This document shows, one piece after another, positions 3,143-24,289 of a stretch of DNA of 34,017 bases. Under the pieces are notes generated by a model. It saw nothing but the letters and a program-made list of their open reading frames with translations, made no database searches and was not told the DNA's origin. The stretch's first letter is position 1. Each line of letters begins with the position of its first letter. The translations under genes were made by a program, and so were the position numbers. This stretch comes from a bacterium (lineage in GTDB: Bacteria > Patescibacteriota > Minisyncoccia > 1-14-0-10-42-19): assembly GCA_030690215.1 (NCBI GenBank), contig JAUYHD010000015.1:1-34017 (forward strand), in the 5' to 3' direction.

Positions 3143-4147
3143 ATGAAGAAGCTGGCAAAAAAATATCTGATAGCGCACAAAGATAACGACGGAAAACCGC
3201 ATATTCTTCGCGGGAAGGCGGTTATGGTCATTGCTTTTGTCGTTCTGTTCTTGTTTCTTGTGTCGTTTGTACAGCATGCGATTATTACGGGCACCAATTT
3301 TGCCTCAATCATTTCGTCCGTGCTTATAGATCTTGCAAACGGGGACCGCCAACAAAACGGCGTTCATACGCTTTCCATTAACCCGGTGCTCTCGTACGCC
3401 GCGGAATTAAAAGCGCGCGACATGGCGCAAAAAAGTTATTTTGCGCATACGTCTCCCGAAGGATTGAGCCCGTGGTATTGGTTCGGAGAAGCGGGGTATG
3501 ACTTTTTGTACGCGGGCGAAAACTTGGCGGTTAACTTTTCTGACTCTGTTGATGTGGAGCGCGCATGGATGAATTCGCCGTTGCACCGCAAAAATATTTT
3601 GAGCGAACATTTTTCTGAAATAGGCATAGGGACCGCGCACGGTTTTTATAAGGGGCGCGAAACTACATTTGTAGTCCAGTTATTTGGGAATCCATTGCCC
3701 GAAGAAATAAAAGCAGTAAAAGAATCTGCTCCAAAAGAACAAGAGACCGTAACAGCAATAGCCCCGCGGGAAACGGTTGTGTTAGGGGATGAGGTGTCTC
3801 TAGCAGAAGCCGAGCTTGAATTTACCGAAGAGGAAGAATCATTCGTCGCGGTTGATGTTAATGGCTATGCGCTTTTGGATACGGTGCGTTCTCTCTCGGA
3901 GGCGGAAGAATCTCCGGTGTACGCATCTATGGTTGATACTATATTTACTTCGCCCAAACGCATTTTGTACGCGCTCTATGGGGTTCTTGCGATGTTTATC
4001 TTGCTCGCGCTTTCTTCATTTTTTGCCTACGAGATACGCAAACATCATGTGCGTCATATAGTATATGGCGTTTTTCTCCTTGTGTTTATGGCGGGTCTTT
4101 TTTACGCGAGCCATACGCTCATTTACGCGAAAGTATTTGTGCGGTAA
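3143..4147 (+). CDS. CAP/SCP-domain membrane protein
   Basis: A 334-residue protein. Residues about 28-50 form an N-terminal membrane helix (VMVIAFVVLFLFLVSFV). About 70-190 is a CAP (cysteine-rich secretory protein/PR-1) domain: NPVLSYAAELKARDMA, YFAHTSPEG, AGENLA, AWMNSPLHRKNIL and IGIGTA with the conserved histidines and glutamate. A variable acidic linker (about 190-265) leads to two more helices near the C-terminus (LYALYGVLAMFILLALSSFF; VYGVFLLVFMAGLFYAS). The CAP domain is expected on the outer face of the membrane. Its role in CPR bacteria is unknown; CAP domains elsewhere bind lipids or act in cell-wall contexts. The last 57 bases, including the stop, recur as an imperfect copy at 4937-4993. 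Confidence 0.85.
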   Translation: MKKLAKKYLIAHKDNDGKPHILRGKAVMVIAFVVLFLFLVSFVQHAIITGTNFASIISSVLIDLANGDRQQNGVHTLSINPVLSYAAELKARDMAQKSYFAHTSPEGLSPWYWFGEAGYDFLYAGENLAVNFSDSVDVERAWMNSPLHRKNILSEHFSEIGIGTAHGFYKGRETTFVVQLFGNPLPEEIKAVKESAPKEQETVTAIAPRETVVLGDEVSLAEAELEFTEEEESFVAVDVNGYALLDTVRSLSEAEESPVYASMVDTIFTSPKRILYALYGVLAMFILLALSSFFAYEIRKHHVRHIVYGVFLLVFMAGLFYASHTLIYAKVFVR

Positions 4148-4277
4148 TTTTTTTTCTGCGCACGTTGTTTTATGCGGGCACAAAAAGTGCATATTTTTGA
4201 TTTGCCCCGATATATTGGTGATATGAAGAATATATATTTTCTTGAATGTTTCAATTTTCTATAGTAAATTGATCCTA

Positions 4278-4856
4278 ATGAGTAGTGGCAAGGTAAAAGT
4301 TATTAAATCGGGGGTATTTATTGATGCTTCAAATTTGCTTTGGGCCATGAAGCAGAAAGATGAAAAAACTGGAAAGAAAATCCATTATAATATTTGTTTT
4401 AAAAAATTAAAACAATATTTAAAAAGGCACTATTCCCCCAGTTTTTATCATTATTATGCATGTGAAGATAGTCGTCCCAAAAAAGAACCCTACATTACGC
4501 ACGCAAAGAATACCCAAAAATTTTTTCAAGTTTTGGACGGTCTTGGCTATAATGTGATAAAAAAGGAATTAAAGCACATAGGGGATGGAACCAAGTGTGA
4601 CACAGATGTCGAAATCACTATGGCTATGCATAAATATGCGAACGATATAGAAAATATTATATTATTCAGTGGAGATAGTGATTTTCTTTCCGCAGTAGAG
4701 CATTTTCATTCCTTGGGGAAACACGTAAGAATATTTTCTTTTGAAAAATTTCTTTCCTGGGAGCTTAAGGATTTTGCGATAAAAAATCCAAGATGTAATT
4801 ATAAACTTTTGGATGATTTAAGAGGAAAATTAGAACGCACGGATGATGAAAGCTAG
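4278..4856 (+). CDS. NYN-domain (LabA/DUF88-like) putative ribonuclease
   Basis: A 192-residue single-domain protein of the NYN family, a PIN-like nuclease fold. Conserved acidic motifs are visible: GVFIDASNLLWAM near the start (first Asp), a central KCDTDVEITMAMHKYA segment (second acidic cluster) and ILFSGDSDFLSAVEHF (the SGDSDF signature). Such proteins are thought to cut RNA using Mg2+ bound by these aspartates. I chose ATG 4278 over an in-frame TTG at 4242, since the TTG lies in AT-rich promoter-like sequence and the family normally begins a few residues before the FIDxxN strand. The gene is clearly more AT-rich than its neighbours and stands alone between two copies of the CAP gene 3' end, which suggests acquisition. 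Substrate unknown. Confidence 0.8.
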   Translation: MSSGKVKVIKSGVFIDASNLLWAMKQKDEKTGKKIHYNICFKKLKQYLKRHYSPSFYHYYACEDSRPKKEPYITHAKNTQKFFQVLDGLGYNVIKKELKHIGDGTKCDTDVEITMAMHKYANDIENIILFSGDSDFLSAVEHFHSLGKHVRIFSFEKFLSWELKDFAIKNPRCNYKLLDDLRGKLERTDDES

Positions 4857-4871
4857 TTATTCACAACGCTC

Positions 4872-4899
4872 TTGACGCTCTTCGAATATTGAGTATAAT
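4872..4899 (+). promoter_or_regulatory. Strong promoter just upstream of a terminator
   Basis: TTGACG (4872-4877), 16-bp spacer, TATAAT (4894-4899). The predicted start is near 4906, only about 12 bases before the terminator stem at 4918, so the transcript would be about 45 nt. No ORF is served by it. Confidence 0.6.
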
Positions 4900-4917
4900 G
4901 ACAGTATTAGATATTAC

Positions 4918-4949
4918 CGCCCTCCAGCAATGGGGGGCGGGTCTTTTTT
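4918..4949 (+). terminator. Rho-independent terminator
   Basis: CCGCCCTCCA and TGGGGGGCGG form a 10-bp GC-rich stem with one T-G wobble around GCAA, followed by GTC and six T. The right arm and T-tract overlap the start of the CAP 3'-end copy. It may end NYN-gene transcripts or the tiny transcript from 4906. Confidence 0.75.
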
Positions 4950-4993
4950 ACGCGAGCCACACGCTTATCTACGCAAGGGTATTTGTGCAGTAA
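4937..4993 (+). pseudogene. Displaced copy of the CAP gene 3' end
   Basis: These 57 bases match 4091-4147, the end of the CAP gene, at 50 positions. In frame they read GLFYASHTLIYARVFVQ and a stop, against GLFYASHTLIYAKVFVR in the intact gene. Four of the seven differences are synonymous third-base changes; the rest give K to R and R to Q. It was therefore probably coding after it diverged. Nothing else of the CAP gene remains upstream. Confidence 0.8.
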
Positions 4994-5087: not shown

Positions 5088-5116
5088 TTGACTTTTGCGT
5101 TTTTATATGCTACAAT
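5088..5116 (+). promoter_or_regulatory. Strong promoter for a structured RNA
   Basis: TTGACT (5088-5093) and TACAAT (5111-5116) with an ideal 17-bp spacer; the predicted start is near 5123. A hairpin CCCTTA-TTTA-TAAGGG (5061-5076) lies just upstream. No convincing protein-coding ORF follows for over 400 bases. Confidence 0.75.
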
Positions 5117-5141
5117 TGCGTCTAGAAAGTAAGGAATTTGA

Positions 5142-5238
5142 TAACAGACAGTAAAGGGGGCTTATTCCAGAGGCATTATTCATTATTTTAAAAATTATAT
5201 TATTTCCTTCTAGGAAGAACCCCCTTTACTGTCTGTTA
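5142..5238. repeat. 97-bp element with 19-bp perfect inverted repeats
   Basis: TAACAGACAGTAAAGGGGG at 5142-5160 is repeated exactly in inverse orientation at 5220-5238. The AT-rich interior (59 bp) has no ORF. As DNA it resembles a miniature inverted-repeat element; as RNA it is the first large hairpin of the candidate transcript. Confidence 0.75.
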
Positions 5239-5487
5239 CAACCTCCTGTAACATATGTGGTAGATTCATCTCTATGAAGAGGGTAATACAAATGCGACTG
5301 GTGGGTCGCATATGTATTCATTTATTACCTCCCCCACTCTTAATAGAGCATAATACCCCAAAGAGGAACCTTTCGGGGAGAAAAGGATCCTCACCAATTC
5401 AACCCGTTATGCATTTTGATACGAAAACTGCGACAGGGTATCTTGTCCAACCATTTCCGAAATGTATAACGGGTATCGAATATAAAA

Positions 5488-5537
5488 AAGGAGCGCGAGT
5501 TTAAAGGAGAAGGGAAAACGCGCTCCTTCTATTTTTA
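5488..5537. terminator. Bidirectional intrinsic terminator/attenuator
   Basis: AAGGAGCGCG (5488-5497) pairs perfectly with CGCGCTCCTT (5519-5528), followed by CTATTTTTA on the plus strand and by a run of six T on the minus strand. The plus T-tract region (5530-5539) can instead pair with TTAAAAATAG (5561-5570) in a read-through transcript. No separate promoter is evident before the next ORF, so partial read-through is plausible. Confidence 0.7.
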
Positions 5538-5609
5538 AGCCACTGTTTTAGAACGGTAGTTTAAAAATAGAATTGAATTATTGAAAATAAAATAGGAGGA
5601 ACAAAAAAA

Positions 5610-5816
5610 ATGGGCGACATGCTAGTTGTTACGGATCTATCCAAGACATGGAAGGGCGTGCCTCCGGCGGTAATCTTTCGCAAAGTGCGCGGAAGCGTTT
5701 TGATGACTACGCGTGACGGGAACGCAAAGTGCGTGATGATCTCAAAGATAAAAAAGGAGCAGCAACATGCTCAAAAAGATAAAAAAATACCACAGGGGAG
5801 GGGCACAACATTCTAA
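5610..5816 (+). CDS. Small basic protein of unknown function
   Basis: A 68-residue ORF starting at ATG 5610, preceded by a perfect AGGAGG (5594-5599) at 10-nt spacing, one of the few strong ribosome binding sites in the window. The protein (MGDMLVVTDLSKTWKGVPP...) begins with a beta/alpha-looking segment and ends in a Lys/Gln-rich tail (KIKKEQQHAQKDKK). I recognise no family. It sits between the terminator at 5488-5537 and the one at 5961-5992 without an obvious promoter, so it is probably transcribed by read-through from 5123. CCTCCT in the leader (5242-5247) is complementary to its ribosome binding site. Its 3' end overlaps another small ORF with its own Shine-Dalgarno sequence. It is real if the ribosome binding site is functional, but no homology supports it. 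Confidence 0.5.
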   Translation: MGDMLVVTDLSKTWKGVPPAVIFRKVRGSVLMTTRDGNAKCVMISKIKKEQQHAQKDKKIPQGRGTTF

Positions 5817-5844
5817 CATTCTGCAGAATGTTAGAATGTTGTAG
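5767..5844 (+). CDS. Possible 25-residue peptide ORF
   Basis: ATG 5767 follows AAGGAG (5754-5759) at 7-nt spacing, inside the 3' end of the upstream small ORF in another frame. The product starts MLKKIKKYHRGGAQ and its last third is encoded by the left and right arms of a perfect palindrome (5805-5842). The sequence just after AAAAAAATACCA recurs near 5859-5880, ahead of a third strong Shine-Dalgarno sequence (5877-5883) that precedes an ATG with only four codons (5891-5905). Coding status is uncertain; ribosome-binding strength is the only support. Confidence 0.3.
   Translation: MLKKIKKYHRGGAQHSNILQNVRML
5805..5842. repeat. 38-bp perfect palindrome
   Basis: The sequence reads the same on both strands across all 38 bases, centred on CTGCAG (5821-5826), with arms of the form ACAACATTCTAACATT. 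No T-tract follows, so it is not a standard terminator. It could be an operator, a recombination site or an RNA dimerisation hairpin. Confidence 0.8.
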
Positions 5845-7820: not shown

Positions 7821-7962
7821 ACCCCGTTAGGCAAAATCGAATCGTCTTTCTTGCTGTATCTAACAACGAATCTTGATGACTCCCATAATGGGCCATTGTT
7901 TCTTTAATCATATATAGTATCCGTCAGACGTAGATACGGCTTTCGATTTAGCCAAACGGGGT
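7821..7962. repeat. Inverted repeat with ACCCCGTTAG-type ends, copy 1
   Basis: ACCCCGTTAGGCAAAATCGA (7821-7840) is repeated in inverse orientation at 7943-7962 with 18 of 20 matches, enclosing 102 bp with no ORF. It follows the 67-bp repeat by 15 bp. The right arm touches the -35 box of the orphan gene promoter. Confidence 0.7.
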
Positions 7963-8850: not shown

Positions 8851-8989
8851 CCCTGTAGCGAAAACAGTATTACGCCGTTGTTGTCCGACAGATGAATTTC
8901 TTTTAATGATGGGCAACATGTTATCTTCTGTTGTCTCTGTTGCTTGTGGTGAGGCGTGAGGATAACCATACTGTTTTCTGCTAACGGGG
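8851..8989. repeat. Inverted repeat with CCCxGTTAGC-type ends, copy 2
   Basis: CCCTGTAGCGAAAACAGTAT (8851-8870) pairs imperfectly with 8968-8989 (reverse complement CCCCGTTAGCAGAAAACAGT and two more bases), with two single-base gaps. It takes the same place relative to the 67-bp repeat as the arms at 7821-7962, though the arm and centre sequences differ. No ORF lies inside. Confidence 0.6.
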
Positions 8990-24247: not shown

Positions 24248-24289
24248 CCCCGTTAGATAGAGCTCGCAAGCTCGCTCATCTAACGGGGT
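24247..24289. repeat. Short ACCCCGTTAGAT hairpin payload
   Basis: ACCCCGTTAGAT (24247-24258) pairs perfectly with ATCTAACGGGGT (24278-24289), with an inner GAGC/GCTC stem. It occupies exactly the place of the GIY-YIG element in the nusA copy and also begins ACCC and ends GGGT. The same ACCCCGTTAG ends occur at 7821. No T-tract follows. Confidence 0.7.

Follow-up and report, generated by a model that had tools for sequence, protein, structure and literature searches.

The window analyzed here, a 34,017-nucleotide stretch of a 1.02-Mb, 38-contig genome (G000) of Paceibacteria (Parcubacteria), encodes a structured, noncoding RNA that represents a new, previously uncatalogued family and is restricted to one genus in the sets searched. 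We consider it probable that this is a stand-alone ncRNA gene, inherited vertically within one genus of Niyogibacteria, with a single hairpin (hairpin 1) as its core, a candidate binding loop, and an accreted 3′ domain (Table 1). One genus mate (G001) was deposited as Candidatus Niyogibacteria bacterium NC_groundwater_1197; therefore, the organism of the window is a Parcubacteria-type CPR bacterium. That a genome of ~1 Mb devotes ~450 bp to a conserved, covarying noncoding gene suggests a real use. Our literature searches turned up no paper on structured noncoding RNAs of Parcubacteria.

TABLE 1 Positions of the RNA gene and of its features in the window
Feature	Position	Strand	Remarks
RNA gene	5118-5540	+	Structured, noncoding
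Extended -10 σ70-type promoter, TTGACT-17-TACAAT	5088-5116	+	TG precedes the -10
Hairpin 1	5142-5238	+	Basal stem, internal loop, inner stem, apical loop; common to all three species
Basal stem of hairpin 1, 19 bp	5142-5160/5220-5238	+	Perfect pairing
Inner stem of hairpin 1, bulged A	5165-5173/5207-5216	+	
Apical loop of hairpin 1, A/U-rich, ~33 nt	5174-5206	+	
Central domain, helix CTATGAAGAG with CACTCTTAATAG	5240-5400	+	Helices covarying between window and G002
Small hairpin GAGGAACC...GGATCCTC	5363-5392	+	Within the central domain
Long hairpin CCCGTTATGCATTT...AAATGTATAACGGG	5403-5473	+	Similar to an inverted repeat of REPIN-like type in Paceibacteria
Putative intrinsic terminator, stem GGAGCGCG (5490-5497)/CGCGCTCC (5519-5526), then TTCTATTTTTAA	5490-5540	+	
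A/U hairpin TTCTATTTTTAA...TTTAAAAATAGAA	5527-5572	+	Overlaps the U-tract; arms identical in window and G002, loop differs

The predicted fold of positions 5124 to 5537 has a minimum free energy of -147.5 kcal/mol compared to -92.3 ± 5.8 kcal/mol for dinucleotide-shuffled sequences (z = -9.5; none of 100 shuffles was as good), and the homologues in the genus mates G002 and G001 also fold better than expected (z = -6.1 and -6.7, respectively). The first-pass annotation had proposed a candidate structured RNA with long stems, including a perfect 19-bp one; the stems are confirmed in the sequence, the 19-bp stem is exact, and additional stems are present. Its statement that no credible open reading frame exists needs a qualification: the RNA contains one long ORF of 76 amino acids (5274-5504), but this ORF is not conserved in G002, whose homologue has stops in all three frames and no frame that is convincingly similar. 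A search of the window against Rfam 15 returned no family at the gathering threshold over the RNA, the sole passing match in the whole window being a tRNA, and permissive matches to the RNA were chance-like (best subthreshold E = 0.013, a plant miRNA family). Thus, neither a known Rfam family nor a conserved protein-coding frame, both named beforehand as findings that would speak against a new RNA, was encountered.

Homologues occur in two genus mates, one copy per genome, with the entire RNA in G002 and the promoter and hairpin 1 in G001. The gene order is CAP-NYN-RNA-pyrF-PRTase-HU-RNase Y-iPGM-MFS in the window, CAP-RNA-pyrF-PRTase-HU-RNase Y-iPGM in G002, and RNA-HU-RNase Y-iPGM-MFS in G001; the three RNA loci are orthologous. 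The promoter proposed for the window is indeed there and is conserved in all three species, reading TTGACT/TATAAT in G002 and TTGACA/TATACT in G001, with the 17-nt spacing and the TG kept and hairpin 1 following in both. Transcription would start from a promoter of the housekeeping type.

In G002, no NYN-domain gene separates CAP from the RNA. In the window, this nuclease-like gene (4242-4856) is bracketed by two copies of the terminal 18 codons of the CAP-domain gene (4087-4147 and 4937-4990), and it looks as though it had been inserted in such a way that the CAP 3′ end was restored. At 4872-4940, a near-consensus promoter, TTGACG-16-TATAAT, almost directly abuts a strong terminator-like hairpin inside the CAP gene fragment, and a perfect palindrome of ~36 nt (CAACATTCTAACATTCTGCAGAATGTTAGAATGTTG, 5807-5842) lies closely downstream of the RNA.

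Covariation in homologues, the support that the first-pass annotation had looked to, is found in a sample of three sequences, two for the 3′ domain. In an ungapped alignment of the three species, 7 of the 19 basal-stem pairs of hairpin 1 show double compensatory changes, and 53 of 57 cells are paired, a value reached by 4 of 10,000 shuffles. Between the window and G002, 104 pairs are shared, 19 of them compensatory, 11 one-sided, and 0 broken, the last figure meaning less since alifold picks pairs that fit both sequences. The consensus energy of this pair (alifold) has a z score of -16 against column-shuffled alignments, or -12.4 for the 3′ domain alone.

Hairpin 1 is conserved in an uneven manner. 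The interior of the basal stem measures 59 to 60 nt in all three species and keeps much of its sequence (ATTCCAG...TATTTnAAAA...TAGGAA); the inner stem and apical loop are preserved in sequence while the basal stem varies yet still pairs, which points to the loop as the functional site. The three-species comparison also splits the conserved core from the accreted domain and hence directs attention to the apical loop. The basal stem may be a rigid support, free in sequence as long as pairing is kept, that would present the conserved inner stem and a fixed-size, A/U-rich loop. The loop would then be the working part, most likely a putative protein-binding site and less likely a target-RNA site, because it seems too A/U-rich for much base-pairing specificity. 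We infer this partner, as we do transcription, the termination point, and the function of the RNA.

The distribution of the RNA is narrow. A covariance model of hairpin 1 (R1) recovered only the three genus members among 384 genomes of the class; in a sample of 380 genomes of the phylum, its sole hit was the genome of the window. There was a single copy per genome and no match elsewhere. Scanning all of GTDB with a relaxed version of the loop pattern gave 17 loci, of which the model supports only that in the G001 genome; the same kind of scan of viral sequences gave 5 loci, the best of which (18 bits, E = 0.29) resembles coding sequence on the opposite strand, and blastn against phages and plasmids gave no match to the RNA. 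No comparable RNA is present at the syntenic place beside HU in four other families, nor at a contig end beside HU in G003, a member of the next genus of the same family, where the HU gene is split between contigs and the comparison is incomplete.

Downstream of hairpin 1 the species differ. G001 has neither the central domain nor the rest of the 3′ domain, and its promoter and hairpin 1 are followed by its own strong terminator-like hairpin, whereas in the other two species the transcript would have gained a ~300-nt 3′ domain with extra helices and a terminator. In the central domain, CUCCCC/GGGGAG could form a putative pseudoknot. The proposed unit of ~415 nt therefore holds in full for the window and G002, but it is a composite, with only the promoter and hairpin 1 in all three species. 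A similar distinction applies to the proposed terminator: a terminator-like hairpin exists, with compensatory changes in its stem and an identical U-rich tail in G002, but its 21-nt loop and imperfect U-run explain why it escapes a simple scan. The RNA 3′ end is uncertain because the second A/U hairpin, conserved in G002, comes after the terminator. Given the imperfect terminator, this trailing hairpin, and small ORFs led by ribosome-binding sites, read-through past the RNA is possible.

Such ORFs bring up the alternative of a 5′ leader with a regulatory role, resembling an attenuator or a riboswitch and serving either the small ORF behind the RNA or pyrF and the phosphoribosyltransferase gene, which we regard as unlikely. 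An RBS-like GGAGG and short ORFs do follow the RNA in the window (5610-5816) and in G002, and pyrF lies downstream on the same strand. However, the small ORFs of the two species are unrelated, a GC-rich hairpin with a T-run, seen by eye, precedes pyrF, and in G001 the pyr genes are missing from the neighborhood and the RNA is followed by HU, which is encoded on the opposite strand. No conserved gene, the mark of a cis-regulatory leader, thus stands downstream of the RNA, where ORFs are unrelated or absent, and a leader role is disfavored because the downstream genes differ.

The long hairpin of the 3′ domain has relatives outside this locus. A model built from this stem in the window and G002 (R2) matches sequences in six other Paceibacteria families that have in common only the CCCGTTA...TAACGGG palindrome and not the inner loop; as the palindrome alone is shared, they were rejected as homologues of the whole RNA. 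Of the 384 class genomes, 20 carry the exact pattern CCCGTTANNNATT-spacer-AATNNNTAACGGG, with up to five copies each, compared to 0 for the reversed control pattern among the matches listed. The common dispersed form is CCCGTTAGAAATTT...AAATTTCTAACGGGG, ~60 to 100 bp in total with a variable interior; a single base separates the arm in G002, AAATTTGTAACGGGAT, from the dispersed form AAATTTCTAACGGGAT, and the window copy, diverged at three stem positions, is further away. REPINs are REP doublets that form hairpins, with inverted conserved ends and a variable spacer, and are dispersed in intergenic DNA (PMC3116915). The long hairpin likewise has inverted conserved ends and a spacer and matches a dispersed family, its arms fitting the Paceibacteria form in the same end-spacer-end organization (PMC3116915); unlike REPINs, it is single copy by the strict pattern, fixed at one syntenic place, and embedded within a larger RNA.

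Because this stem matches a dispersed REPIN-like repeat, the 415-nt RNA is best described as a composite, and one may ask whether it is mainly mobile-element debris, i.e., REPIN- or MITE-like palindromes that fold merely as palindromes do. The repeat pattern just described speaks for this, as does the 9-mer CTAACGGGG, which is enriched in the window (4 occurrences against 0.15 expected). Hairpin 1 and the promoter, on the other hand, are covarying, single-copy elements at a syntenic locus of three species, and no match to hairpin 1 turned up elsewhere; for hairpin 1 the debris reading is largely refuted, and for the RNA overall we judge it improbable. Under the preferred reading of a stand-alone RNA gene, sequence comparison indicates that the lineage leading to the window and G002 probably took up a REPIN-like hairpin into this gene, where it apparently became one helix of the 3′ domain, a possible example of RNA growth via mobile-hairpin capture. 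It is conceivable, as a tentative extension, that the RNA belongs to a new CPR-specific ribonucleoprotein with a loop-presenting core, whose second domain arose by this capture in one sublineage; if true, this would document how a mobile palindrome turned into a structural helix within an RNA that has a function.

Related repeats are seen elsewhere. The strict pattern has one copy in G000, and the window contains a second, shorter inverted pair, intergenic and with REP-like CTAACGGGG ends, at 24249-24287; the same ends also occur at 7822-7830 and 8981-8989. Two ~58-kb viral contigs from IMG/VR (L069 and L070) carry a related intergenic hairpin, ACCCGTTAAGCATT...AATGCTTAACGGGT. A crude HUH-motif scan found no transposase near 25 of these repeat loci, and no literature on the repeat sequence was found.

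Comparison with known RNAs agrees with the earlier statement that signatures of tmRNA, RNase P RNA, 6S RNA, and SRP RNA are not visible. tmRNA was rejected with no RF00023 match at the locus, the genome's own lying on contig C7; RNase P RNA with neither an RF00010 match nor GAGGAAAGT...ACAGAA signatures there, a probable one being on contig C30; 6S RNA with no RF00013 match in the three genus genomes; and bacterial small SRP RNA with no RF00169 match and no visible SRP apical motif. RF00169 gave no match in any of 18 Paceibacteria examined, though it was detected in most named control genomes; small SRP RNA would be lost or divergent in this class. A highly diverged substitute for SRP RNA, 6S RNA, or a similar housekeeping RNA is very improbable. 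In its favor, neither RF00169 nor RF00013 was found in the three genus genomes, and hairpin 1 roughly equals a small SRP RNA in size. Against it, the lack of RF00169 across all 18 genomes does not single out an RNA whose hairpin 1 is confined to one genus, and no SRP tetraloop, symmetric-loop motif, or 6S central bubble with terminal stem is visible.

The RNA shares with 6S RNA a small size, a long hairpin, and an A/U-rich unpaired region but, unlike it, has no central bubble with terminal stem and no RF00013 match and is not widespread. It also resembles orphan structured ncRNAs that comparative genomics has brought to light in bacteria (e.g., PMC2864571 and PMC8040213), which are likewise intergenic and promoter led, with covarying helices, a conserved loop, and no function assigned; unlike those, it comes from one CPR genus so far, with a tiny covariation sample and no Rfam match. 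OLE, GOLLD, and ROOL (PMC12286853 and PMC9723947) are likewise multidomain and ornate, with functions not evident from sequence, but the RNA described here is shorter and matches no Rfam family. As a separate observation, the RNase P RNA candidate on C30 (L016, ~1190-1880) matches RF00010 at 26 bits, below the gathering score, and its GAGGAAAGT and ACAGAA signatures are ~680 nt apart, which suggests a large insertion or a divergent RNA.
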